22,763 nucleotides of DNA from an uncultured Bacilli bacterium (GTDB lineage Bacteria > Bacillota_I > Bacilli_A > RF39 > UBA660): NCBI GenBank assembly GCA_948874605.1, contig CAQRXS010000007.1, forward strand, positions 1-22,763, given 5' to 3'. The stretch's first letter is position 1; each line of letters opens with the position of its first letter. A model generated the notes under the pieces. The model made no database searches and was not told the origin of the DNA. It was given only the letters and a program-made list of their open reading frames with translations. The position numbers and the translations under genes are program-made. Below are positions 8,260 to 22,405 of this stretch, piece after piece.

Positions 8260-9363
8260 ATGAAAAAATATGATTATTTGATTGTTGGAGCAGGCCTTTT
8301 TGGCGCAACATTCGCTCATGAAATGACGAAACAAGGAAAGAAATGTTTAGTTATTGATAAACGTGATCATATAGGTGGTAATGTTTATTGTGAAGATGTG
8401 AATGGAATACATGTTCATAAATATGGTGCTCATATTTTCCATACGTCCGATAAAGAAATTTGGGAGTATGTTAATAATTTTTGTGAGTTCAACAACTATG
8501 TAAATTCTCCAATTGCGAATTTTAAAGGTGAATTATACAACATGCCGTTTAATATGAATACATTTACAAAACTATGGAGTGATGTTATTACACCAGAGGA
8601 TGCAAGAAAAAAAATAGAAATTCAAAAACAAGAGTTAAATGGCCGTGAACCAGAAAATCTAGAAGAGCAAGCAATTTCTCTTGTTGGTAGAGATATTTAT
8701 GAGAAACTAGTAAAAGGATATACAGAAAAACAATGGGGAAGAGATTGTAAGGAATTACCTGCCTTCATAATTAAACGTTTACCAGTAAGATTTACATTTA
8801 ATAATAATTACTTTAATGATCGTTATCAAGGAATACCGATAGGGGGATATAACGTGATTATTGAAAAAATGCTTGAAGGATGCGATATTGAACTTGGTGT
8901 AGATTATTTAAAAGAAAAAGAAAAGTATAATGCTTTAGCCGAAAAAGTTTTATATACAGGAATGATTGATGAGTTTTATAATTTTAAATTAGGAAACTTA
9001 GAGTACCGTAGTTTGAGGTTTGAAAATGAATATTTAAGTAATGTAAATGATTATCAAGGCAATGCGGTTATTAATTATACGGATAGAGAAACTCCATATA
9101 CGCGAGTAATTGAACATAAGCATTTTGAATTTCAAGATGTCCCTGGAACTGTAATTACTCGGGAATATCCAAGCGATTGGCATTTTGGTATGGAAGCTTA
9201 CTATCCCGTAAATGATGAAAAAAATAATTCCTTATTTGAAGAATATAAAAAACTAGCAAAGGCAGAAGAAAATGTAATCTTTGGTGGAAGACTAGGTAAT
9301 TACAAATATTATGATATGGATAAAGTAATCAAAGCTGCTTTAGAGCTTGCGAGAAGTATGTAA
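8260..9363 (+). CDS. glf: UDP-galactopyranose mutase
   Basis: This FAD enzyme interconverts UDP-galactopyranose and UDP-galactofuranose, the donor for Galf residues in surface glycans. The 367-residue length is typical. The N-terminal dinucleotide fold carries GAGLFGA at 10-16 and a following I-G-G-N segment at 38-41. HKYGAHIFHT lies at 53-62, KGYTEKQWGRD at 152-162, and the RLPVRFTFNN segment, including the arginine that contacts the UDP-sugar, at about 173-182. It stands immediately upstream of the polysaccharide operon but has its own promoter and a strong terminator, so it can be expressed independently. No dedicated galactofuranosyltransferase was recognised in the window; the DUF4422 enzyme is the only sugar transferase candidate nearby. 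Confidence 0.95.
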   Translation: MKKYDYLIVGAGLFGATFAHEMTKQGKKCLVIDKRDHIGGNVYCEDVNGIHVHKYGAHIFHTSDKEIWEYVNNFCEFNNYVNSPIANFKGELYNMPFNMNTFTKLWSDVITPEDARKKIEIQKQELNGREPENLEEQAISLVGRDIYEKLVKGYTEKQWGRDCKELPAFIIKRLPVRFTFNNNYFNDRYQGIPIGGYNVIIEKMLEGCDIELGVDYLKEKEKYNALAEKVLYTGMIDEFYNFKLGNLEYRSLRFENEYLSNVNDYQGNAVINYTDRETPYTRVIEHKHFEFQDVPGTVITREYPSDWHFGMEAYYPVNDEKNNSLFEEYKKLAKAEENVIFGGRLGNYKYYDMDKVIKAALELARSM

Positions 9364-9447
9364 ATATCGTTATAAAAAACAACAACAATACAATAATTAT
9401 ATAATATTAAATAAGAACTAATTTTAAGCAAGATCATAATTTGAAAG

Positions 9448-9475
9448 AAGATGAGTGAATGAAACTCGTCTTTTT
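9448..9475 (+). terminator. Intrinsic terminator after glf
   Basis: AAGATGAGT (9448-9456) and ACTCGTCTT (9464-9472) pair over 9 bp with one G-U wobble around a 7-nt loop, followed directly by a T-run. It separates glf from the downstream operon. The rest of the 288-bp gap holds A-rich sequence without an evident gene (9364-9440), then the promoters at 9509-9614. Confidence 0.85.
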
Positions 9476-9508: not shown

Positions 9509-9539
9509 TTGACGTTAGGGGGGGGGTATTTGATACAAT
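9509..9539 (+). promoter_or_regulatory. Polysaccharide operon promoter P1 with a poly-G spacer
   Basis: TTGACG (9509-9514) and TACAAT (9534-9539) are separated by 19 nt, and TGA before the -10 gives an extended -10. Nine consecutive G (9518-9526) sit inside the spacer. Slippage of such a tract during replication would change the spacing, and loss of two G would give the optimal 17. The predicted transcript begins around 9546. I infer a phase-variable promoter; the sequence alone shows only one length. Confidence 0.6.
9518..9526. repeat. Nine-G homopolymer tract
   Basis: This is the longest G run I noticed in an otherwise very AT-rich window, located between the -35 and -10 boxes of P1. No upstream start codon with a ribosome site reads through it, so an effect on transcription is more likely than on translation. 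Confidence 0.9.
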
Positions 9540-9549
9540 ATATTTAGCC

Positions 9550-9651
9550 ATGAAAAAACAGAAAAGCTTTTCAAAATGTTCTTGGTTGCGCAACAGAGTG
9601 ATACGTGTTAAAATAATGTATAAGCGAGAAAGAAGTGTATTGGGTGATTAA
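9550..9651 (+). CDS. Possible 33-residue leader peptide
   Basis: An ATG at 9550 opens a basic 33-codon frame (begins MKKQKSFSKCSW) whose TAA at 9649-9651 directly abuts the ATG of the sugar transferase gene (TAAATG). There is no Shine-Dalgarno site, but a transcript from P1 would start only a few bases upstream, so leaderless initiation is conceivable. Transcripts from P2 would omit the first part; an in-frame ATG at 9616 would remain. It could couple translation into the operon or be a chance frame. Confidence 0.25.
   Translation: MKKQKSFSKCSWLRNRVIRVKIMYKRERSVLGD
9585..9614 (+). promoter_or_regulatory. Second promoter P2 overlapping a palindrome
   Basis: TTGCGC (9586-9591) and TAAAAT (9609-9614) are exactly 17 nt apart, with TGT before the -10 (extended -10). 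The perfect 10-bp palindrome GTTGCGCAAC (9585-9594) covers the -35 and could be an operator half or core site. Another palindrome, GAAAAGCTTTTC, lies at 9561-9572. The ribosome site GGGTGAT then precedes the ATG at 9652. P2 would give expression independent of the poly-G tract. Confidence 0.45.
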
Positions 9652-10326
9652 ATGAAAAGTGGAGAGCTAGTGAATGAGCAATCTAGTATAGGATATAGCG
9701 CCAAGAAGAAAATATATTTTTTTATCAAAAGAATTTTTGATATATTTTGTAGTTTGATAGGAATTATATTTTTATTACCATTATCTTTAGTAATAAAAAT
9801 ATGTTATGTCTGCACAGGAGATTTTCGAAGTATATTTTATTCTCAGTTGCGAATTGGAAAAAACGGCAAATTGTTTCGTTTTTATAAGTATCAAACAATG
9901 ATTTCCAATGCAGACGAAGTTTTGGAAAAAATGCTTGAAGAAGATGAGGCGCTTCGTGAGGAATTCCGAATAAATCAAAAATTTAAAAACGATCCAAGAG
10001 TAACAAAGTTTGGAAAAATTTTAAGAAAATTATCGATTGATGAATTACCACAGTTGCTTAACGTTTTGATTGGCAATATGAGCTTAATAGGTAATCGTCC
10101 TTATTTGCCTCGTGAAATACCTGAAATGGGAGAGTACTATAATGATATCGTCAAAACGAAACCTGGAATTACTGGCTTATGGCAAGTAAGTGGAAGAAAT
10201 GATGTAACATTCAAAAAAAGATTAGAGTTAGAACAACAGTATTCTGAAGAATGTTGTCTGAAGCTAGACATTAAAATATTGCTTCATACCTTTGCAGCGG
10301 TATTTAAAGGCGATGGTGCGATGTGA
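9652..10326 (+). CDS. Initiating undecaprenyl-phosphate sugar phosphotransferase
   Basis: A polyprenyl-phosphate hexose-1-phosphate transferase of the small (PglC/WcaJ C-terminal) type. It transfers sugar-1-phosphate from a UDP-sugar to undecaprenyl phosphate, the first step of repeat-unit assembly on the cytoplasmic face. The 224 residues include a membrane or re-entrant hydrophobic helix at about 30-52, a KYQTM segment at 79-83 (usually K-F-R-S-M), DPRVTKFG at 114-121, the catalytic Asp130-Glu131 dyad in SIDELPQLLNVL, and PGITGLWQVSGRN at 171-183. The GPRP motif after the dyad is GNRP here (147-150), an uncommon change. It is the first gene of the operon, starts directly after a small upstream frame, and ends overlapping the GTG start of the next gene. 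Confidence 0.92.
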   Translation: MKSGELVNEQSSIGYSAKKKIYFFIKRIFDIFCSLIGIIFLLPLSLVIKICYVCTGDFRSIFYSQLRIGKNGKLFRFYKYQTMISNADEVLEKMLEEDEALREEFRINQKFKNDPRVTKFGKILRKLSIDELPQLLNVLIGNMSLIGNRPYLPREIPEMGEYYNDIVKTKPGITGLWQVSGRNDVTFKKRLELEQQYSEECCLKLDIKILLHTFAAVFKGDGAM

Positions 10327-11327
10327 AAAAAATTGTGTTATTATTTTGTCTATTGGGTTTTATAACTGGATGTAGTAAAGAAAAATTAGTGGATAGCAAT
10401 GATATACCAAATTTTTCTGAGTTAGAATCACAAGAGAAAAAAATTAATATTGTTGATTTGGATTCTAATACTAGACCCATTGCTGTAGTAGTAAATAATT
10501 CAGCAGTAGCAGTAAAAGTACAGACAGGTTTACAAAACGCTTATTTAGTGTATGAGATTCCAGTCGAAGGCGGACTTACAAGATTGTTAGCAATCTACAA
10601 AGATGTTGAGGATCTTACCATTGGAACCATCCGAAGCGCTCGTCATAATTTTTTAGATTATGCTTTTGAAAGCGATGCAATTTTAGTTCATTATGGCTGG
10701 AGTCATTATGCCAAAGATGATATTAAATCTACAGGAATAAATAATATTAATGGCCTGTCCGATTCAGCATTTTGGCGAGAAAATCCCGAAAAACTTCCAT
10801 CAGAACATACTGCTTATACAAGTATTTCTAAAATAAAAAACACAGCGAGTCAAAAGGGATACCGAATGACTACAGAAGATTCTTTAATTTTTCAATATTC
10901 TGAGCAAGAAGTTTTATTAGAAAGACAAGAAGGGTTTAAAAAAGCAAAACAATTAAATATACCATCAAATGATCAGTCTAATACTTCATATACCTATGAT
11001 GAAGAATCAAAAACTTATAAAAGATTTGTAAATGGTAATCCACACATTGACTATAAAACGAAAAAGCAATATACAGTTAAAAATATCATAATACAAAAAA
11101 TTAACACAAAAGTAGCCAAAGATAATTATTATTGGGATTTAGAAACAGTGGGTACAGGAGAAGGATTTTATATTACGAATGGCTACGCGATCCCTATAAC
11201 ATGGACGAAAGAATCAAGAAATGCCAAAACAAGCTATCGCTATCAAGATGGAACTGAAGTAATTTTAAACGATGGTAACACCTATGTTCAATTACAGTCC
11301 ACAAAGCAGAGTTTAAAAATGGAATAG
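10323..11327 (+). CDS. DUF3048 (YerB-like) lipoprotein
   Basis: A GTG start overlaps the previous stop as GTGA. The N-terminus is a lipoprotein signal (MKKIVLLFCLLGFITGC) with the lipobox I-T-G-C and lipidated Cys17. The mature part matches the DUF3048 family as in Bacillus YerB: RPIAVVVNN, the EGGLTRLLAIY and GTIRSARHNFLDYAF stretches, then a C-terminal part with GEGFYITNGYAIPITW. The biochemical role is not established to my knowledge. Such proteins are usually encoded alone, so a place as second gene of a capsule-type operon suggests an extracytoplasmic role in assembling, attaching or modifying the polymer. That role is inference from position only. Confidence 0.85.
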   Translation: MKKIVLLFCLLGFITGCSKEKLVDSNDIPNFSELESQEKKINIVDLDSNTRPIAVVVNNSAVAVKVQTGLQNAYLVYEIPVEGGLTRLLAIYKDVEDLTIGTIRSARHNFLDYAFESDAILVHYGWSHYAKDDIKSTGINNINGLSDSAFWRENPEKLPSEHTAYTSISKIKNTASQKGYRMTTEDSLIFQYSEQEVLLERQEGFKKAKQLNIPSNDQSNTSYTYDEESKTYKRFVNGNPHIDYKTKKQYTVKNIIIQKINTKVAKDNYYWDLETVGTGEGFYITNGYAIPITWTKESRNAKTSYRYQDGTEVILNDGNTYVQLQSTKQSLKME

Positions 11328-11337
11328 AGAGGTTTAT

Positions 11338-12120
11338 ATGAAAAAGATTATAGTTGCAACTCATAAAGAATATCAAATGCCAGAAGATGAGCTGTATTTA
11401 CCAGTTCATGGTGGTGCAGAGGGGAAACCGGATATAGGTTATCAAAAAGATAATGAAGGCGAGAATATTTCTCTTAAAAATCCTTATTTTTGTGAACTTA
11501 CGAGTCTTTATTGGGCATGGAAAAATTTAGATGTAGATTATATTGGATTAGTTCATTATCGTCGCTATTTTTCTTTGTATAAAAAAAGAATGAAAACTGA
11601 ACAAGAAAAATTTCAACATGTTTTAAGTTCAAAAGAATTAAATGAATTATTAGAAAATACAGATGTAATTGTACCTAAAAAAAGAAAATATTATATAGAG
11701 TCTCTTTACTCACATTATCAACATACTTTACATATTGAACCACTAGAGATAACTGGACAGATAATACAAGAAAAATATCCAAAATATATTGATGAGTTTC
11801 AACGTTTAAAAAAACGAACTTCTGGTCATATGTTTAATATGTTTATTATGAAAAAAAGTGTTTTAGAAGGATATTGTGAATGGCTATTTGATATATTGTT
11901 TGAGTTAGAAAAAAGAGTGGATAACGATAAATATGATGCATTCCATGCCAGATTCTATGGAAGAGTTTCAGAGTTATTACTAGATGTATATCTTAACACG
12001 AATCACATTTCTTACAAAGAAGTAAAAGTAATAGATATGCAAAATATTAATTGGTTAAAAAAAGGTACAAGTTTTTTAAAAGCTAAATTTCTAGGTGAAA
12101 AATATGGGAAAAGTTTTTAG
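11338..12120 (+). CDS. DUF4422 glycosyltransferase
   Basis: The 260-residue protein matches the DUF4422 family of capsule and lipopolysaccharide glycosyltransferases. Landmarks are the start MKKIIVATHKEY, the PVHGG segment at 22-26, NPYFCELTSLYWAWKN at 48-63 and GLVHYRRYFS at 70-79, which is diagnostic of the family. No membrane segment is visible, so it should act on the lipid-linked unit at the cytoplasmic face. It is the only conventional sugar glycosyltransferase I can recognise in the operon. Donor and linkage are unknown; a UDP-Galf donor is possible given glf upstream. GAGAGG precedes the ATG, and the gap to the previous gene is 10 bp. Confidence 0.88.
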   Translation: MKKIIVATHKEYQMPEDELYLPVHGGAEGKPDIGYQKDNEGENISLKNPYFCELTSLYWAWKNLDVDYIGLVHYRRYFSLYKKRMKTEQEKFQHVLSSKELNELLENTDVIVPKKRKYYIESLYSHYQHTLHIEPLEITGQIIQEKYPKYIDEFQRLKKRTSGHMFNMFIMKKSVLEGYCEWLFDILFELEKRVDNDKYDAFHARFYGRVSELLLDVYLNTNHISYKEVKVIDMQNINWLKKGTSFLKAKFLGEKYGKSF

Positions 12121-12128
12121 GAAGTGTG

Positions 12129-13052
12129 ATGAAAATGTTTGAAACAAATAAGTACATAAAAACTCTTGAAAATAAATTTTGTAAAATTTTAACAGAGGAT
12201 GAAATTAAAGAAATTCAACAAATAGTTTTAGGAATGATGGTGGATTTAAATGATATCTTTCAAAGATATGATATTAAGTATTATTTGGGAGGAGGCAGTG
12301 CTTTAGGAGCAATACGCCACAAGGGATTTATACCATGGGATGAAGATATGGATATAAATATGTTTCGAAAAGATTATGAAAAGCTAATAAAAATATTTGA
12401 TGAGGAACCTCGCTTGTATGAAAAATATTATTTATGTGAAAATAGTTATGATAATGAATTTGATGTAAATTTTATGAAAATAAAATTAAAAGGAACTGTT
12501 TTTCAAGAGTATTTATATTCTGATTATAATAAAGATGGAGTATTTATAGATATTTTTCCGGTGGAAAATGTACCAAATAATAAAATTCTTCAAAAATTAC
12601 ATGGCTATTTAATACATGGCATGTTATTTATTTGCTCATGTATTAGGTTTTATAAAAAAAAGGAAAAGTATTTATCTTTTGGTAATGATATAAAATACGT
12701 GAAAGCCGTAAAGAAAAAAGCGAGAATTGGAAAAATAGCATCGGCATTTGGAAGGAATTTTTGGCTTCGTATTTCAAAAAAAATAATGACGATGTGTAAA
12801 AATGAAAACTCGAATTATCTTTCTGTGCCAACAGGTAGAAAACATTATTTCGGCGAAATGATTCGTAGAAACGAAGTGCAACCACTAAAATGGGTTCCAT
12901 TTGAAAATATCGAACTTCCAGTGGCTAAAGATAACGCCACATACATGTCTAATCTTTATGGAGACTATATGAAGATTCCAGAAGTTTCTAAAAGGGAACG
13001 ACATTATATATATAAAATAGATTTAAAAAACGTAAGGAGTGAAAAAGAATGA
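12129..13052 (+). CDS. LicD-family phosphotransferase
   Basis: LicD proteins, nucleotidyltransferase-fold enzymes related to fukutin and FKRP, transfer phosphocholine or polyol phosphate from a CDP-activated donor to a glycan. Counting from the ATG at 12129, the signature GGGSALGAIRHKGFIPW lies at about 54-70, followed by DEDMDI with the metal-binding acids, and IDIFPVE at about 140-146. An in-frame GTG at 12126 is an alternative start; the ATG is chosen because AGGAAG at 12119-12124 sits 4 nt before it. The end overlaps the next gene by 4 bp. No choline kinase, choline importer or LicC-type partner was recognised here. The neighbour is an IspD/TarI-like cytidylyltransferase, which points to polyol phosphate rather than choline. 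Confidence 0.92.
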   Translation: MKMFETNKYIKTLENKFCKILTEDEIKEIQQIVLGMMVDLNDIFQRYDIKYYLGGGSALGAIRHKGFIPWDEDMDINMFRKDYEKLIKIFDEEPRLYEKYYLCENSYDNEFDVNFMKIKLKGTVFQEYLYSDYNKDGVFIDIFPVENVPNNKILQKLHGYLIHGMLFICSCIRFYKKKEKYLSFGNDIKYVKAVKKKARIGKIASAFGRNFWLRISKKIMTMCKNENSNYLSVPTGRKHYFGEMIRRNEVQPLKWVPFENIELPVAKDNATYMSNLYGDYMKIPEVSKRERHYIYKIDLKNVRSEKE

Positions 13053-13759
13053 ATATAGGTATTATTTTTGCGGGTGGAATAGGTAGTAGAATGAAAATGC
13101 CTGGTATGCCAAAACAATTTTTAAAAGTAAATGGAGTGCCAATTATTGTTCATACTTTAAGACATTTCCAGATTCATCCAGATATTCATAAAATAGTTGT
13201 TGTAATATTAGAAGATTATATGGATTATATGAGGCAATTAGCGGAAGAATATCATTTAACTAAAGTAGAAAGTATTGTAGCGGGTGGTGCAACAGGGCAA
13301 GAGTCTATTTATAATGGCCTGAAGGCAGCGGAAAGGATCGCTGACAATAAAAATGCAATTGTTTTAATACATGATGGGGTTCGTCCAATTATTGAAGAAG
13401 GTTTAATCGATAAAAATATTGCGAGTGTAAAAGAGTACGGATCAGCAATAAGCAGTGTTCCTTGCAAAGAGACAATTATTCAATTAGAAGATAACAATTA
13501 CGTGAAGCAAGTCATTGATCGTTCTACAGTATGGTTAGCAAGAGCGCCTCAAAGTTTTTATTTAAATGAGATTCTTACAGCTCATGAAAGAGCACGTAGT
13601 GAAAATCAAATTAATGTTATAGATTCTTGTACTATGATGACACAATATGGAAAAAAATGCCATATTGTAGAAACTTGTTCAGAAAATCTAAAAGTAACTA
13701 CACCAGATGATTTCTTTATTGTAGAACGTCTTATGAATGTAAAAAAGATAGAGGATTAA
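13049..13759 (+). CDS. IspD/TarI-like cytidylyltransferase (probable CDP-polyol synthase)
   Basis: A cytidylyltransferase that couples CTP to a sugar-alcohol phosphate. Visible motifs in 236 residues are FAGGIGSRM at 7-15 (nucleotide loop), PKQFL at 21-25, the AGGATGQESIYNGL block at 78-91, HDGVRP at 108-113, SVPCKETI at 136-143 and KVTTPDD at 215-221. The family includes IspD (CDP-methylerythritol) and TarI/Bcs1 (CDP-ribitol). HDGVRP and the SVPCKETI segment, together with two LicD domains in the same operon, favour a CDP-polyol such as ribitol, arabinitol or a similar alcohol for the surface polymer. An IspD role in isoprenoid synthesis is less likely in this context. It starts overlapping licD by 4 bp; the next gene starts 1 bp after its stop. 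Confidence 0.88.
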   Translation: MNIGIIFAGGIGSRMKMPGMPKQFLKVNGVPIIVHTLRHFQIHPDIHKIVVVILEDYMDYMRQLAEEYHLTKVESIVAGGATGQESIYNGLKAAERIADNKNAIVLIHDGVRPIIEEGLIDKNIASVKEYGSAISSVPCKETIIQLEDNNYVKQVIDRSTVWLARAPQSFYLNEILTAHERARSENQINVIDSCTMMTQYGKKCHIVETCSENLKVTTPDDFFIVERLMNVKKIED

Positions 13760-13760
13760 T

Positions 13761-15776
13761 ATGAAAAAAGATTTTAAATTAGGTTTAGATACATTATATA
13801 TTTATTCATTAATTATCTATATATGTGCAACAATTATAACTTCTATTTATGTATACGCAAATTCGATAGTAGACTTGCCATTTACTTTAATAAGATATGG
13901 CGTTCTAGTGATATGCCTAACAAAAATAGTATTTTACGATTTAAAATATTATAAACCTAAAAGCATACCAATTGTTTTTACAATATTTATTTTGCTTTTT
14001 GCAAGCTCCATTGTCTCAGGGAATCGAACTTTGTTTCAACTTTATATATTAATATTAGGTGGATATAGAGTCGATTTTGACAAGTTATCAAAAAAGGTAC
14101 TAATTTTTGAAGGCGGTTTTATAGGAATTATAATATTATTATCGCTACTAGGAATTATTCCTAACCGTGAATTTACTCGAGCTGGGCAAAGTGTTATCCG
14201 ATATAGTTTAGGTTTCAAATTTACAACTTATCCTGCTCTTTTGGCATGGAGTTTATCGACAGTGTACTTATATTTGAAAAGAGGAAAACTAAAAAAAAGT
14301 GATTATTTTTGGGTACTAATAGTTAACTTGTTTTTCTATATTTTAACAGATACTAGAAATGAATTATTTTGCTCAGTTTTAACACTTATCGTATTTGGCT
14401 TGCATCAACATGGCTATTTAAAAAAATTTTATCGTCTAACTGAATTTGTTGGAAAATATTTTATGATCGGACTCGTTCTTCTTTCAATTACTCTTGCGTT
14501 TACATATAAATATTCGAATCCTATATTAAGACAGTTAAATATATTTATGTCTAATCGGTTGCATTTGGCTCAAAAAGGTATGGAGAACTATGGTATTACC
14601 TTATTAGGAAATGATATTGCATGGGTTGGACTTTCAGATGTTTATGAACAAACAGCAAAACAAAAAGAATTTAATTATGTAGATAATTCTTATTTAAACA
14701 TCCTGTATCAATATGGTATATTGGTTTTAATGCTAGTAACTTATGGATATTATAAATTATCTAAAAATGCTGCTAAAGAGAAAGACTATTATCTATTGTA
14801 TATATTAATTATCTTATATTTCCATTCATTTTTAAATCCGCAGCTTCTGTTGATTTCTTATAATTTATTTGTGCTAAAATTTGCTGATGTTTTACTTCCT
14901 AAAATAAAACTAAACCAGATAAAAAAAAGTTCAGAAAAAGAGAAATATATGACCCTAGATGAGATTCATGCAGAACAAATCCAAATGTTTAAAAAAATAA
15001 CAAAATATTTGGATAAAAATCAACTTAGATATTTTATATGCGGAGGAACATTGTTAGGTGCAATTCGCCATAAAGGATTTATTCCGTGGGACGATGATAT
15101 TGATATATTAATGCCTCGTCCAGACTATGATAAACTTCAAAAATTATCGATAGATTTTAAAATAGCTGATAATCTAGAACTTCATTCTTTTGAATTAAAT
15201 AATTTAAATGATCCCTTTTGTAAAATTTATAATTTAGACACTGAAATGGAAAAATACTATTCTGACGATGAATATGATAATCATATGTGGATCGATATTT
15301 TTCCGATGGATGGGCTACCAGATAGTCAAAAAAAGATAAATAAAACTTTTAAAAAATCATTAAGGTATAGACAATTATTAAAGCTGAGAAAGGTAAGAGA
15401 AGAAATAATGGTAAAAGAGTCCAAAACTTATGCCAAAGCAATCGCTAAACCATTTCTTAAAATTTTGATAGATTTAATGCCTAAAAAATTTTATGTCCGT
15501 AAAATTGATAAATTATGCCGTAAATATCCCTATGATTCGGCAAATTTTGTAGGTGGAATTGCATGGGGATATGGACCACAAGAGGCATTGCCTAGAGAAG
15601 AGGTAAATAAAATCGTAAAGGTAGAATTTGAGAACATGAAAGTAAAAACTTTTTCTTGTTGGGATAAATATTTAAAAAATTTATACAAAGATTACATGAA
15701 ATTGCCCCCAAAGGACAAAAGAGTCGCCCATGTTATGCAAATCAAAAAAATTGAAAGGAGTGTTCCTGTAAGATGA
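13761..15776 (+). CDS. Wzy-like polymerase fused to a LicD domain
   Basis: One uninterrupted 671-codon frame joins two activities normally found on separate proteins. Residues 1 to about 378 form a polytopic membrane protein with roughly ten hydrophobic segments and a VDNSYLNILYQYG stretch at 307-319, typical of Wzy O-antigen/capsule polymerases. After a charged linker at about 380-398, a complete LicD domain follows: GGTLLGAIRHKGFIPWDDD at 428-446 with its metal-binding acids, and WIDIFP at 510-515. Met397 could serve as an internal start, but only a weak purine stretch precedes it and no stop lies between the parts. LicD uses cytosolic CDP donors, so the C-terminus must face the cytoplasm, whereas Wzy polymerises outside. 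The fusion would tie polyol-phosphate addition to the polymerase. The gene ends with an ATGA overlap. Confidence 0.85.
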   Translation: MKKDFKLGLDTLYIYSLIIYICATIITSIYVYANSIVDLPFTLIRYGVLVICLTKIVFYDLKYYKPKSIPIVFTIFILLFASSIVSGNRTLFQLYILILGGYRVDFDKLSKKVLIFEGGFIGIIILLSLLGIIPNREFTRAGQSVIRYSLGFKFTTYPALLAWSLSTVYLYLKRGKLKKSDYFWVLIVNLFFYILTDTRNELFCSVLTLIVFGLHQHGYLKKFYRLTEFVGKYFMIGLVLLSITLAFTYKYSNPILRQLNIFMSNRLHLAQKGMENYGITLLGNDIAWVGLSDVYEQTAKQKEFNYVDNSYLNILYQYGILVLMLVTYGYYKLSKNAAKEKDYYLLYILIILYFHSFLNPQLLLISYNLFVLKFADVLLPKIKLNQIKKSSEKEKYMTLDEIHAEQIQMFKKITKYLDKNQLRYFICGGTLLGAIRHKGFIPWDDDIDILMPRPDYDKLQKLSIDFKIADNLELHSFELNNLNDPFCKIYNLDTEMEKYYSDDEYDNHMWIDIFPMDGLPDSQKKINKTFKKSLRYRQLLKLRKVREEIMVKESKTYAKAIAKPFLKILIDLMPKKFYVRKIDKLCRKYPYDSANFVGGIAWGYGPQEALPREEVNKIVKVEFENMKVKTFSCWDKYLKNLYKDYMKLPPKDKRVAHVMQIKKIERSVPVR

Positions 15777-16801
15777 ATAAAATATTAGAACAGGATTTGA
15801 ATGCACTTATGGAGTGCAACGAAATTGATTGGAAAGAATTTCAAAATAAAAAAATTTTAATTACTGGTGGAACAGGATTAATAGGGTCTTTAATCGTAAA
15901 AAGTTTTCTTTATAGAAATCAGATGTACCAAGCCAATATTCAGATTGTGTTAATTGCAAGAAATAAAAATAAAGTAGAAGAAATGTACGGAAAAAAAGAT
16001 GAAATTACTTGTATTGAATCATCTATAGAAAACATACATGAGTTACCTGAAAATATTGATTATGTAATACATTGTGCTTCTCCAACAAAATCCAAATTTT
16101 TTGTGACAAATCCCGTAGAAACTATGAATGCTTCTATCATAGGTACACAGAAATTATTAGAATTATGTAAAGCGCAATCTTTAAGTAAATTTATTTATCT
16201 ATCATCTATGGAGATGTATGGTGTTATCGATAACGAGCATGTAACTGAATCTGAATTGGGATATATTGATAATTTAAATGTTAGAAGCTGTTACTCTATG
16301 GGAAAAAGAGCAGCAGAGCTTTATAGTTATTGCTATTTGCAAGAATATAATGTTCCAGCCGTAATAGCAAGACTTGCCATGTGTTTTGGTTCTGGTGTTT
16401 CTAAAGAAGAAAGCAGAGTTTATAAATATTTCTGTGATTGCGTTCTTTCAAATCAAAACATTGAAGTTCGCTCTACAGGCAAAACAATTGTAAATTTTGT
16501 TTATACTATGGATGCTATAAAAGCTTTATTTATATTATTAAATAAAGGAATAACTGGTGAAGCTTATAATATAGTTGCTGACGCAGATCGTTTTACAATT
16601 ATGGACATGGCGAATTATTTAGCTGATAAACATGGAAATGGAATTAAGGTTATTCAAAATATTCCAAAAGAAAATCAAGGATTTGCACCAGAAAATCAGA
16701 TGATTTTAAGTAATAGTAAAATAAAAGAATTGGGTTGGAAACCAGAGTATCAGATTCAAGATGCATTATCCAGGACATTGGAGTATATAAAAAATGAATA
16801 A
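15773..16801 (+). CDS. NAD-dependent epimerase/dehydratase (extended SDR)
   Basis: A 342-residue extended short-chain dehydrogenase. The Rossmann glycine motif TGGTGLIG is at 31-38, an HCASPTKSKFF segment follows at 100-110, LSSMEMYG at 143-150 provides the catalytic Ser region, and Tyr174/Lys178 form the Y-x-x-x-K pair in YSMGKR. The closest general resemblance is to the UDP-glucuronate decarboxylase/dTDP-glucose dehydratase group. Its neighbours (IspD-like and two LicD domains) suggest it acts on a nucleotide-linked sugar or on CDP-activated donor formation, but the exact reaction cannot be read from motifs. It overlaps the genes on both sides (4 bp and 8 bp), which fits co-translation within the operon. 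Confidence 0.88.
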   Translation: MNKILEQDLNALMECNEIDWKEFQNKKILITGGTGLIGSLIVKSFLYRNQMYQANIQIVLIARNKNKVEEMYGKKDEITCIESSIENIHELPENIDYVIHCASPTKSKFFVTNPVETMNASIIGTQKLLELCKAQSLSKFIYLSSMEMYGVIDNEHVTESELGYIDNLNVRSCYSMGKRAAELYSYCYLQEYNVPAVIARLAMCFGSGVSKEESRVYKYFCDCVLSNQNIEVRSTGKTIVNFVYTMDAIKALFILLNKGITGEAYNIVADADRFTIMDMANYLADKHGNGIKVIQNIPKENQGFAPENQMILSNSKIKELGWKPEYQIQDALSRTLEYIKNE

Positions 16802-18308
16802 AGCTATAAAGCATGTTACCTTATGGAACGCAAGTACTAGCTTATTACTGCAAATAATTACGATATTAAGTGGATTTATAATCCCAAAATTAATTCTTGG
16901 AACATTTGGTTCAGAAGTAAATGGCTTAATATCTTCTTTAAATCAATTTCTAAATTATGTAACTCTTTTAGAAGGTGGAATCTCCTCTGTAATTTTGGCT
17001 AATTTATATAAACCTTTATATGAACGAAATATGAATAAAATAAGTGCTGTTGTTAAAACAACTCAAAAATTTTACAAAAAATTGGCTATTATTTTTATAG
17101 GATATACATTAATATTAGCATTACTATATCCCATTATTTTCTCTGTTTCATTTTCATATGAATATGTTTTTGCTTTAACTTTAATTCTGTCAATTAATAT
17201 TTTTGTACAATACAATTTTTCGGCATCTTGGAAATTATTATTAAATGCCGATAAAAAGGTTTATATAGTATCGTTGATTCAAATTATTCTTATTATTTTA
17301 AACACGATCCTTTTTGCTGTATTAATTAAGTTTTTTCCAAACATTCATTTTTTAAAATTAGTAACAGCTATGGTTTATTTATTACAACCATTATGCTATC
17401 ATCGCTTTGTTTTAAAATATTATCAAATAGATAAGAATGTAGTGGAGGATGAAACTTTATTGAAAAGCAGATGGGATGGTTTTGGAATCAGTATTGCTTC
17501 ATTTATACATAAAAATACAGATATTGCTCTTTTAACTTTTTTTACAAATTTGAAAGTTGTTTCAATATATTCAGTGTACAATCTTGTTACGAACGGTTTA
17601 AGGTTAATTATCACATCTTTTTCAGCAGGAATCATTCCTACCATGGGGCATTTATATGCGAAAGATAACAAAGAAGAATTAAACCAACTATTTTCTTTTT
17701 ACGAATATATTATATTTTTTGGGACATTTTTTTTCTTTACAATAGGAGGAATGCTAATAACACCTTTTGTTCTGTTATATACAAAAAATGTTACAGATGT
17801 AAACTATTATGAACCAATATTTGGTATTCTATTAATATTATCAGAGGCCATTTTCTGCATTAAAGAGCCGTTTGTTAATATTGCTTATTCAGCTGGAAAA
17901 TTTAAGGAAATAAAAAAACATGCTTATATTGAAGCAATTTTGAATATTATAATTTCTATTGTATTAGTTAATTTATATGGACTAATTGGTGTTGCGATTG
18001 GAACATTAATAGCAATGAGTTATCGTACCATTTATCATATTTTATACTTAAGAAAAAATATTATGAATCGTCCATTATGGAAATTTATAAAAAAATTAGT
18101 TTGTTTTACTATAACAACAGTCATAGGAATATTTTTGTGCACATTTATATATCCGCTTAAAGTTTTAAATTTGGTAAATTGGATGATTGCAGCAGTTCTA
18201 TATTCTGTAATTTTTATACTGTTATATGGAGGTATGAGTCCTTTATTTTTTAAAGACGAGTGTAATTACGTCAAGTCCTTTTTAATTAAGATTTTGAAAA
18301 GAAAATAG
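16794..18308 (+). CDS. Wzx-type polysaccharide flippase
   Basis: A 504-residue polytopic membrane protein with about 12-14 hydrophobic segments across its whole length. The N-terminus, with the SGFIIPKLILGTFGSEVNGL segment, is typical of the polysaccharide biosynthesis (RfbX/MATE-like, MOP) exporters. Wzx proteins flip undecaprenyl-pyrophosphate-linked repeat units from the cytoplasmic to the outer face. With the Wzy-like domain and an initiating phosphotransferase in the same operon, this completes a Wzx/Wzy-dependent pathway. The start overlaps the previous gene by 8 bp, with GGAG 10 nt upstream. Confidence 0.93.
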   Translation: MNKAIKHVTLWNASTSLLLQIITILSGFIIPKLILGTFGSEVNGLISSLNQFLNYVTLLEGGISSVILANLYKPLYERNMNKISAVVKTTQKFYKKLAIIFIGYTLILALLYPIIFSVSFSYEYVFALTLILSINIFVQYNFSASWKLLLNADKKVYIVSLIQIILIILNTILFAVLIKFFPNIHFLKLVTAMVYLLQPLCYHRFVLKYYQIDKNVVEDETLLKSRWDGFGISIASFIHKNTDIALLTFFTNLKVVSIYSVYNLVTNGLRLIITSFSAGIIPTMGHLYAKDNKEELNQLFSFYEYIIFFGTFFFFTIGGMLITPFVLLYTKNVTDVNYYEPIFGILLILSEAIFCIKEPFVNIAYSAGKFKEIKKHAYIEAILNIIISIVLVNLYGLIGVAIGTLIAMSYRTIYHILYLRKNIMNRPLWKFIKKLVCFTITTVIGIFLCTFIYPLKVLNLVNWMIAAVLYSVIFILLYGGMSPLFFKDECNYVKSFLIKILKRK

Positions 18309-18320
18309 GAGCGTGAAAAT

Positions 18321-19370
18321 ATGAAAAAAACACACAATGGTATTATTAGTTTTTGGAAATTTATATTTAACATAATTATTCTCTTATATCATTTTCAATT
18401 TAGAATACATAGTCGATATTTTAAAATGGGATATTTAGGAGTAGATTTCTTTTTTATAGTGTCTGGATATTTAATGACAGCAGGTGCATTAAAAAAGTCT
18501 AATAATCCAAATGAAAGTATTGGTAAAATAACTTGGGAATATATATGGAAAAAGGTAAAAGTATTATTCCCTTATATTTTTTTAGCTTTTATGATATCTC
18601 TTTTTGTAAAAAGTTCTTTTAGAACATTTGAGTCATATCAATATGCACGATCAGTGTGGAATCTATTTTTGATTGATATGTCTGGAGTTATCACAACTCA
18701 AATGTTAGGTCAATCTTGGTATATTTCTGCAATGCTAATTTCAATGATAATTCTATTTCCATTAATAAGAAAATATCAGAAAAACTTTATCTACATATGC
18801 TGTCCATTAATTGTTCTATTTGTTGGAGGTTATTTGTCTCATCGATATGGCGACTTAGAAAACGCAATGGCGTGGACTGGATTAATTTATAAAGGGACAT
18901 TAAGAGCATTGTTTGAAATGTGTATAGGAGCTTTACTTTATTTGATGGCTACTAAAATACGGACGATAAAATTTACGACATTTGGTAGAATAATTTTAAC
19001 TTTGTTCGAAATTTTTTGCCTTATTTCTACTTCTATAGTTTGCTTGTGTAGTATAAAGCATTATGATTTTTTTATAGTTGCATTGCTTTCACTAGGCATT
19101 CTACTAGCTTTTAGCGAGCAAACATTATTACTAAAAGTTGCAAATAATAAATTGTGTTATTTTCTAGAGAAATTAAGTTTAGCTATTTATTTAAACCATG
19201 TTTGGATAGAAGATTTAGTTGTGATATGTTTTAAAATAACAGATGTAAAGGTAGCGTTTTGCATTGTCCTCATAACTACTCTTTTTGTTTCAATAATAAT
19301 TACTTATTTAATTCCAATTGTCACTCCAAAAATAATGAAAATAACCAAAAAAATATTTATAGAAAAATAG
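18321..19370 (+). CDS. Membrane acyltransferase (acyltransferase 3/OafA-like)
   Basis: This 349-residue integral membrane protein has about ten hydrophobic helices and the acyltransferase-3 pattern: a His in LLYHFQFR (His24), GYLGVDFFFIVSGYLM at 37-52, and QSWYISAML in the middle. Family members O-acylate sugars, commonly O-acetylation of surface polysaccharide. As the last gene of the tight cluster (AGGAG 9 nt before the ATG, 12-bp gap to the flippase gene), it probably modifies the polymer made here. No clear terminator follows. Confidence 0.9.
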   Translation: MKKTHNGIISFWKFIFNIIILLYHFQFRIHSRYFKMGYLGVDFFFIVSGYLMTAGALKKSNNPNESIGKITWEYIWKKVKVLFPYIFLAFMISLFVKSSFRTFESYQYARSVWNLFLIDMSGVITTQMLGQSWYISAMLISMIILFPLIRKYQKNFIYICCPLIVLFVGGYLSHRYGDLENAMAWTGLIYKGTLRALFEMCIGALLYLMATKIRTIKFTTFGRIILTLFEIFCLISTSIVCLCSIKHYDFFIVALLSLGILLAFSEQTLLLKVANNKLCYFLEKLSLAIYLNHVWIEDLVVICFKITDVKVAFCIVLITTLFVSIIITYLIPIVTPKIMKITKKIFIEK

Positions 19371-20929: not shown

Positions 20930-22405
20930 ATGAAAGAAAAAAAGAAAAAAAGTAATAATAAAAAGAAACAAGAAATAATGCTTAAATTTAGTCGAGTAGT
21001 TTGGATTATATCAATTCTTTTGATTTTCACCTTAGGTTACTTCATATATTCGGCAAATATTTTACCAGTAAAATATTTCATAGGAATCACCGCTTTATTT
21101 GTTGTTATTTTATCGATTCATGGGTTTCTAATACTTAAAAAGAATACTAGAATCTGGCTTTTAATCGTTTTAAATATCTTGTCATTATTATTTATGTGTG
21201 GTGAGGTATTTGCGATTACCAAAATAAGTGATATGATCAATTTCCTAAAAGAAAATCTTGCCAATCATTTTGAAACAAATGTCTATAATATCGTTGTGAA
21301 TAAAAATGCTTTATATAGTTCATTAGAAGATATCAAAGAGAAAACAGTAAAAACTGCAAAAGATATGAAAAATGTCGAAGAATTTGAAAGTCATGTTAAA
21401 AAGAAAGTAAATGTAACAATTGATTATGAAGAAAATATTGTAGATTTACTTACCAAAATAAAAAATGATACAGAACTAATTTTAATTGTAAACTCTGGCT
21501 CTTATGATGCTATGGTTGGAGTGGATGAAGAGTTTGAAGAATCTGTTAAAATTCTTGATACAATTACAATTGTTACAGAAGTAGAACAAGTAAACACAGG
21601 GCTTAATATTACTAAAGATCCTTTTGTAGTCTATTTAAGCGGAATTGATACTCGAAGTGGATATCTACCTTCTAGAAGTTTAAGTGATGTTAATATTTTA
21701 TTAGCAGTTAATCCAAAAACAAAACGTATTTTAATGATTCATATACCAAGAGATTACTATGTACAAGTACATGGAACAAATGGATATCGAGATAAATTAA
21801 CTCATACTGGAACAATTGGTGGAGTAGAACTTACGATGCAAACGTTAGAGGATTTATTAGAAATTGATTTATCTTATTATTTTCGTGTAAACTTTAATGC
21901 TGTTGTAAATTTAGTCGATGCTATTGGCGGAATAAATATTAACTCTGATGTAGATTATTCTTTTACATGCCATACAGATAGAAGCTGTACATTCCATCCA
22001 GGACTTAACTCTGTTGGAGGTAAATGTGCTTTAGCCTTTACTCGTGAGAGAATGGCATATAAGACGGGCGATAGACATCGTGGAGAAAATCAAGAACAAG
22101 TACTTGAATTAGTAATTAATAAAATTACAAGCTCTAGTACTTTGATCTCAAATTATACACAAATATTAGAGGCGCTAAATGGGACATTCCAAACTAATCT
22201 TTCTATGGAAGAAATTACTGGATTAGTAAAAATGCAAATTGATGATATGTCACCATGGAAAATGGAATCTCTAAATGTTGATGGAACTGGAGCAATGAAG
22301 CCAACATATAGCTATCCAAATCAAAATCTTTATGTAATGGAACCAAACATGGATACTGTCCAGAAAGCTATTTCTAAATTAAATGAAGTATTGGAGACAC
22401 CATAA
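20930..22405 (+). CDS. LytR-CpsA-Psr (LCP) family glycopolymer ligase
   Basis: LCP enzymes transfer undecaprenyl-pyrophosphate-linked glycopolymers (teichoic acids, capsule) to peptidoglycan on the outer face of the membrane. The 491-residue protein has a Lys-rich cytoplasmic start and three membrane helices (about 20-42, 48-69 and 74-97), as in streptococcal CpsA. An extracytoplasmic accessory region at about 100-225 follows, then the LCP catalytic domain. This has YLSGIDTRSG at 235-244 (Asp240, Arg242), SDVNILLAVNP at 252-262 (Asp253), HIPRDYYV at 271-278 (Arg274, Asp275), DKLTHTG at 288-294, Arg371/Arg373 and GDRHRGENQEQ at 380-390. All the acidic and arginine positions that hold metal and pyrophosphate appear present. 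It has its own promoter, lies just after the polysaccharide locus, and is the obvious candidate for anchoring that polymer. Confidence 0.94.
   Translation: MKEKKKKSNNKKKQEIMLKFSRVVWIISILLIFTLGYFIYSANILPVKYFIGITALFVVILSIHGFLILKKNTRIWLLIVLNILSLLFMCGEVFAITKISDMINFLKENLANHFETNVYNIVVNKNALYSSLEDIKEKTVKTAKDMKNVEEFESHVKKKVNVTIDYEENIVDLLTKIKNDTELILIVNSGSYDAMVGVDEEFEESVKILDTITIVTEVEQVNTGLNITKDPFVVYLSGIDTRSGYLPSRSLSDVNILLAVNPKTKRILMIHIPRDYYVQVHGTNGYRDKLTHTGTIGGVELTMQTLEDLLEIDLSYYFRVNFNAVVNLVDAIGGININSDVDYSFTCHTDRSCTFHPGLNSVGGKCALAFTRERMAYKTGDRHRGENQEQVLELVINKITSSSTLISNYTQILEALNGTFQTNLSMEEITGLVKMQIDDMSPWKMESLNVDGTGAMKPTYSYPNQNLYVMEPNMDTVQKAISKLNEVLETP

Follow-up and report, generated by a model that had tools for sequence, protein, structure and literature searches.

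We know of phase variation through changes in promoter spacer length in isolated genes or small gene families of a few bacteria, most of them pathogens; the switch families of mycoplasmas are small, and the spacers of their vlp genes carry poly-A. Here we describe a promoter, P1, whose spacer holds a run of nine G (G9) ahead of a surface-polysaccharide operon, in a 22,763-base stretch of DNA from an uncultured Bacilli bacterium with AT-rich DNA, related to gut Bacilli (hereafter the window, with positions counted on its forward strand). Passages of PMC7864442 describe two poly-G systems: in Treponema pallidum, tp0126 (an OmpW homologue) has a poly-G tract between its -35 and -10 and is transcribed best with a 17-nt spacer, and at porA of Neisseria meningitidis the length of a homopolymer (poly-G) sets promoter spacing and output (the title of a 1995 porA paper stands in the reference list of PMC5084427). 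Insertions and deletions between -35 and -10 also switch surface-protein genes in Mycoplasma hyorhinis (vlp), M. arthritidis (maa2) and M. mycoides (vmm), according to a portion of PMC2268961. For the pilus of a gut commensal, Bifidobacterium breve, slippage of G runs has been measured by deep sequencing, and the passages concerned mention promoter-spacer G tracts just in passing (PMC9187656); PMC11868660 is a review of phase variation.

P1 resembles tp0126 in having poly-G between its -35 and -10. However, tp0126 is a single spirochaete outer-membrane gene, whereas the promoters described below come from uncultured Bacilli, which carry as many as dozens of such sites in one genome, and the window further differs in that P1 precedes a polysaccharide operon that has a fixed second promoter as well. 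Neisseria has both G (porA) and C (opc) runs, whereas in the order sampled here we found coding-strand G runs only, and the small mycoplasma families compare with a maximum of 41 sites counted in one genome here. The B. breve G tracts lie within coding sequence and act by frameshift, whereas the window tract lies in a promoter spacer. The G-run promoter class was not described in the titles and abstract beginnings listed by our searches, a coverage outside which most subscription papers fall, and full-text searches for RF39 with phase variation or with diversity-generating retroelements (DGRs) gave no match, nor did one for homopolymeric phase variation at promoters in gut metagenome-assembled genomes.

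Anatomy of P1 and its class

The elements of P1, all read from the sequence, are as follows.

9509..9514, + strand: -35 hexamer, TTGACG
9515..9533, + strand: 19-nt spacer, its final TGA at 9531-9533 (extended -10)
9518..9526, + strand: G9 tract, with G on the coding (non-template) strand
9534..9539, + strand: -10 hexamer, TACAAT

Together they span 9509-9539 and agree letter by letter with a preliminary description of the locus, which had given TTGACG, a 19-nt spacer with G9 and an extended -10 (TGn-TACAAT). The spacer reads TTA-G9-TATTTGA, each hexamer matches the consensus at five of six positions, and the TGn is intact; P1 carries a homopolymer tract between a recognisable -35 and -10, as do promoters of the tp0126, porA and vlp type. 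The tract is the sole G or C homopolymer of at least seven in the window. Dinucleotide shuffles give an expectation of 0.02 G8 per window, and two overlapping matches, as observed, were reached in 0 of 100 shuffles. A chance origin of the tract is rejected on this expectation together with the order-wide recurrence and zero control counts reported below. A consensus promoter scan, which accepts spacers of 16-18 nt only, did not list P1, and gave 2 promoter-like sites in its region compared with 6.4 in shuffles. Directly upstream lies the following feature.

9447..9473, + strand: terminator-like hairpin with a U run behind it, where the glf unit ends (folding energy of the RNA -11.9 kcal/mol, z -4.4)

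None of 200 shuffles folded as well as this hairpin, and a consensus terminator scan listed none at that position. The hairpin would close the preceding unit, and P1 would therefore head a new transcription unit.

Promoters served by MerR-type activators have a 19-20-nt spacer with a dyad-symmetric operator within it. We considered such activation for P1, with which its 19-nt spacer fits, and rejected it, inspection having found neither a dyad nor a complementary C run in the spacer.

For comparison we used samples of genomes (G codes, with L codes for their loci; for example, L145 is contig 4 of G001 and L192 is contig 18 of G131) drawn from the relatives of G001, its family, its order and its class. 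G001 (L001), the nearest relative of the window, is an uncultured Bacilli metagenome-assembled genome (MAG) from the Lapin sample series, with a sugar transferase 67% and a UvrC 80% identical. Among G001 and its relatives the pattern TTGAC-gap-G run-gap-TATAAT, with at least seven G, occurred in 15 of 39 genomes, and in 0 of 39 when read backwards. With at least eight G it occurred in 45 of 288 genomes of the order, G001 included, at 367 counted places, although the weight rests on the genome counts rather than on the 367, since copies are not independent and variable gaps may count a site twice. At least five places were found in 18 of these genomes, the maximum being 41 in a genome of 1.2 Mb, and both controls, the reversed pattern and a C8-run version, were found in 0 of 288. 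In the class-level sample the pattern was present in 13 of 395 genomes, and among the 326 genomes new to that sample three had one place each; four viral contigs carried it as well. The window promoter follows the rule defining the class (TTGAC, at least seven coding-strand G, and a -10 with at least five of six matches). Its -10, being TACAAT, escapes the strict TATAAT search, which therefore would not count P1; the same hexamer is found in 4 of 24 class copies in G001 and 1 of 26 in G011.

Within 860 kb of fetched regions, 97 of 105 runs of at least seven G lay in promoter spacers, a proportion that is not an unbiased rate, the regions having been picked for G-run sites or for the homologous operon; in G001, whose contigs were picked partly from a plain G7 listing, 24 of 29 such runs are promoters. 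Five of the remaining eight runs were coding, and the other three comprised one at a contig end, one without a second hexamer and one without either. The 97 promoters have coding-strand G by definition, and the strand rule rests on the reversed and C-run controls. Comparison of these genomes establishes predicted promoters with G-tract spacers as a recurrent class in the relatives of the window.

Tract lengths differed among copies. In G131, 33 promoters with identical flanks had G7 (1), G8 (28), G9 (3) or G10 (1), and the fetched tracts were G7 (1), G9 (10), G10 (11) and G11 (2) in G001, G9 (7) and G10 (19) in G011, and G8 (7) and G9 (6) in G231. Tract length varies among paralogous promoters and between species, but within each genome the variation is narrow. 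We infer slippage within populations. A comparison of orthologous tracts between G131 and G218 found differing flanks, with the G131 flank pattern at 0 places in G218.

Spacer lengths were compared with those of ordinary promoter pairs (TTGACn-N-TATAAT without a G6 run, spacers of 10-25 nt, in the pooled regions of G001, G011, G131 and G231). These peaked at 17 nt (n = 12; 6 from G011, 3 from G231, 2 from G001 and 1 from G131), with every other length represented three times at most. The 97 G-run spacers measured 15 nt in 19 cases, 16 nt in 7, 17 nt in 1, 18 nt in 0, 19 nt in 23, 20 nt in 37 and 21 nt in 7, with 3 others. Order-wide, the 150 of 367 places that were listed (28 genomes) had 15 nt in 37 cases, 16 nt in 58, 17 nt in 8, 18 nt in 9, 19 nt in 22 and 20 nt in 10, with 6 others. 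The G-run class is mostly displaced from the 17-nt optimum, although to call it "mostly off" is too strong order-wide. The 19-nt spacer of the window is typical of the class and, as had been proposed, lies off the optimum. Spacers of 15-16 and of 19-21 nt usually occur in different genomes; G075 has both.

Three side observations concern the same runs. Among the fetched G-run promoters a single one, in L192, has a 17-nt spacer; its tract is G10, and its contig also bears a reverse transcriptase (RT) and a template repeat. Several G-run promoters of G286, G001 and G131 sit no more than about 100 bases from a contig end, probably because the gene starts behind them are repeated, and genes behind such promoters may be undercounted in MAGs. 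Runs of G9-G11 also occur inside coding frames of G001 (L145 at 5012, 7313 and 18673; L159 at 2228, minus strand), three of the four, those in L145, sitting in its polysaccharide contig, and these are possible frameshift switches.

P2 and the role of P1

Two further features separate P1 from the operon.

9550..9651, + strand: 33-codon open reading frame (ORF; by translation), starting 10 nt past the -10 of P1, its last base directly preceding the ATG of the sugar-transferase gene
9586..9614, + strand: P2, read from the sequence as TTGCGC, a 17-nt spacer and TGn-TAAAAT

P2 lies between P1 and the sugar-transferase gene, starting 46 nt past the P1 -10; in a simple script its -10 scores equally when paired with TTGGTT at 21 nt. 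Only transcripts from P1 would contain the entire 33-codon ORF; those from P2 would lack part of it.

We compared the upstream regions of sugar-transferase homologues, not all 45 of which need be orthologous operons, in a close set (L126-L144, 18 with upstream sequence) and a wider set (L241-L268). A counterpart of P2 spaced at 17 nt was among the best three candidates in 16 of the 18 close homologues, the distant L142 and L143 being without one. Another spacing ties with the 17-nt candidate in the window, L127, L131, L135 and L144, and in L139 P1 itself outscores it. The strict TGn form at 17 nt was found in 13 of the 18 close homologues and in 4 of 28 in the wider set, and because of the latter figure we restrict the claim of P2 counterparts to the close set; overall, 18 of 48 sequences have the strict form at 17 nt, and other spacings account for 12 in all. 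Of the 45 comparators whose upstream sequence reached 165 nt or more, 2 had a run of at least seven G within 400 nt upstream (L127 in G016 and L139 in G024). Ahead of the sugar transferase, at the same place in all three, the window has G9, G016 has GGGAG7 and G024 has G10, and the distance from the -10 to the gene start is 112 nt in the window and about 110 nt in G016. By these comparisons P1 is an optional extra, added to an operon that in its close homologues usually has a predicted P2.

We consider it moderately probable that P1 acts as a length-tuned, switchable booster of the surface-polysaccharide operon. P1 would be a sigma-A-type promoter in which the G run fixes how far the -35 stands from the -10. 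With nine G the spacer is 19 nt, and because this is off the 17-nt optimum P1 is probably weak in the assembled state; slipped-strand loss of two G would give 17 nt and a strong P1, and gain of G would silence it further. P2 would supply a second promoter, such that slippage toggles the booster rather than polysaccharide versus none. That P1 would boost rather than gate follows from the 17-nt P2, which lies between P1 and the gene and is usual in close homologues. Cells would then differ in the amount of a LicD/cytidylyltransferase-type surface polysaccharide, and also in the presence of a 5' leader with the 33-codon ORF. The strength of P1 at each tract length, like the differences between cells, is a prediction.

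Several observations weigh against this account. Lengths are nearly uniform within a genome (the 28 of 33 at G8 in G131; G10 in all 7 fetched from G018), and the one pair from G231 and G286 judged orthologous, by alignment coordinates, has G8 in both. G001 taken alone lacks a clear 17-nt peak (2 pairs at 17, 2 at 14 and 2 at 24), and the commonest spacer among the 150 listed places, at 16 nt, is near-optimal. The 43 of 45 comparators with no upstream G run mean that P1 is not generally required. Finally, slippage alone does not predict the preference for coding-strand G, never C. This preference, with coding-strand G in 45 of 288 genomes versus C in 0 of 288, is what would be expected under the main alternative, in which the G run is fixed and a lineage-specific regulator, or the polymerase itself, reads the G-rich non-template strand, making the promoters a coordinated regulon rather than random switches. 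Narrow tract lengths, flanks that are conserved within but specific to each genome, and spacers mostly a few nucleotides off 17 also favour a fixed architecture. However, one rigid geometry would not give both the 15-16-nt and the 19-21-nt classes, tract length differs among copies with identical flanks, and the window spacer is without MerR-type dyad symmetry; we regard this alternative as unlikely, if the most serious of those considered.

The preliminary description had made P1 the main promoter of the operon, with slippage switching the polysaccharide of individual cells between on and off. Its near-consensus elements, the terminator-like hairpin directly upstream and the use of the class ahead of surface genes all suit such a role, but a 17-nt P2 stands between P1 and the gene, and P2 is what most close homologues have. 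On/off gating of the operon thus appears improbable, whereas the proposal of a phase-variable element retains the support of a recurrent class, of surface genes behind it and of lengths that differ among identically flanked paralogues. We give a similarly small chance to the view that P1 has decayed or belongs to its class only incidentally, with P2 alone mattering and the G run drifting. An upstream G run in just two comparators, the interrupted tract of the G016 copy and the TACAAT of the window would agree with decay, but both hexamers still match at five of six positions, the TGn is intact, and the distance to the gene is nearly equal in the window and G016. Homopolymers can be misread in sequencing. 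Even so, chance or an assembly artefact is barely credible as an explanation when the shuffles predict so few G8 tracts and the same architecture recurs across the order with both control patterns at zero, although trouble in sequencing G tracts is described in passages of PMC9187656.

Genes behind G-run promoters and retroelements

For 69 of 76 G-run sites there was a downstream ORF in the fetched DNA, and 66 of these 69 ORFs formed one single-linkage paralogue set. An N-terminal hydrophobic segment was present in 67 of the 69, compared with 146 of 376 control ORFs. When ten proteins first behind G-run promoters were searched with Pfam, FGE-sulfatase (3) and DUF6273 (2) matched below cut-offs, Laminin_G_3 (1) and FkbH_N (1) matched above them, and four had no match. 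Where examined, G-run promoters appear mostly to precede genes for surface structures and predicted membrane-anchored proteins.

Some of these genes are targets of DGRs. RT matches occurred in 9 of 12 chosen genomes; those of L225 and L226 bear QGGNLSP and are not of the DGR kind, and six aligned RTs form one family with the motif IGN[LMY][ST]SQ, IGxxxSQ being what we take as the mark of a DGR reverse transcriptase. The template repeats were located as follows.

L197:2375-2495: DGR template repeat
L227:369-468: DGR template repeat
L230:569-676: DGR template repeat
L192:5484-5631: DGR template repeat

Template and variable repeats of the relatives differ at template adenines. In G011 the differences fell at adenines in 16/16, 16/18 and 15/19 cases, and all three genes stand behind G9 or G10 promoters. 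The corresponding figures for G231 were 23/29 (behind G8) and 18/23, 21/29 and 20/29 (each behind G9), as well as 16/18. In G131, repeats with 11/12 and 11/13 lie in ORFs that occupy the second place after a G10 or G8 promoter, and one with 17/23 in an ORF 487 nt past a G8 promoter; these ORFs would be co-transcribed from the G-run promoters. G018 gave 20/20, in an ORF that runs off the edge of its locus. In several weaker repeats of G231 and G131 the adenine bias fell short of significance (p up to 0.31), and three variable-repeat ORFs of G231 (L194, L196 and L197) had no G run within 250 nt upstream. The L200 protein diverges from its paralogues in the variable part. Overlap of DGR targets with G-run promoters is therefore found in G011 and G231, and also in G131 if ORFs further behind the promoter are counted. 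A pairing at the level of genomes was considered and rejected, an RT (E<=1e-30) being present in 19 of 45 pattern-positive and 126 of 243 negative genomes of the order (Fisher p 0.26). The combination is real gene by gene in some genomes, with no fixed pairing. In the window there was no RT domain among 20 ORFs scanned with Pfam, and no DGR was seen. No DGR target is known to us that has a length-variable promoter ahead of it; TvpA of Treponema denticola is an example of a DGR target. A full-text literature search did not find DGR targets combined with phase-variable promoters among the papers listed, and in the main-text portion of the DGR survey PMC8144416 "promoter" and "phase variation" occur 0 times.

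In some members of a large uncultured lineage, spacer-length variation seems to be used in bulk. As a tentative wider reading, on which we would put somewhat less than even weight, some of these uncultured gut Bacilli would have a genome-wide switchboard, with orientation-locked G-run promoters, mostly with spacers off 17 nt, placed separately ahead of up to about 40 loci. Most of the loci examined would encode surface proteins that are membrane-anchored and lectin-like, some species, as in the window, would have the polysaccharide operon under such a promoter, and in some genomes switched genes would also be DGR targets. Since the runs are locked to one strand, the G run would do more than slip, and the coding-strand G rule poses a directly testable question about promoter spacers. 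If the switchboard exists, then the DGR layer would rewrite the binding site and the promoter layer would pick which variant is displayed, and one could predict cell-to-cell surface differences by reading tract lengths off ordinary metagenome reads.

The operon and its neighbours

A protein search with the sugar transferase returned as its best two clusters one at 100% (2 contigs, presumably the window) and one at 85% (a single 956-base contig). In a plasmid collection 50 records match the window, none over more than 80% of the query, and the 20 matches listed cover the glf part only, at 67.0-67.9%. The assignment of the locus to a surface structure is by annotation, from the sugar transferase and polysaccharide genes behind P1. 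A nine-ORF block of polysaccharide type spans 9652-19370, where the ORF table and Pfam matches fit the nine-gene operon originally reported; it follows the glf gene of the upstream unit.

8260..9363, + strand: glf, UDP-galactopyranose mutase (Pfam GLF, 3.3e-81)
9652..10326, + strand: initiating sugar-phosphate transferase, WbaP-like (Pfam Bac_transf, 6.9e-59; NCBIfam WbaP, 3.6e-78, below cut-off)
10323..11327, + strand: DUF3048 protein (Pfam), with a lipoprotein-like start by eye
11338..12120, + strand: DUF4422 protein (Pfam), which we take to be glycosyltransferase-like
12126..13052, + strand: LicD-family protein (Pfam)
13049..13759, + strand: IspD/ribitol-5-phosphate cytidylyltransferase-like protein (Pfam; NCBIfam ispD just above cut-off, ribitol-phosphate model just below)
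13761..15776, + strand: 671-aa protein with a LicD domain (Pfam)
15773..16801, + strand: NAD-dependent sugar epimerase/dehydratase (Pfam; NCBIfam matches below cut-off)
16794..18308, + strand: hydrophobic 504-aa protein, no Pfam or NCBIfam match at E<=0.001, presumably flippase-like from its position
18321..19370, + strand: acyltransferase 3 (Pfam)

Past this block, genes of the LytR-CpsA-Psr and VanZ families begin at 20930.
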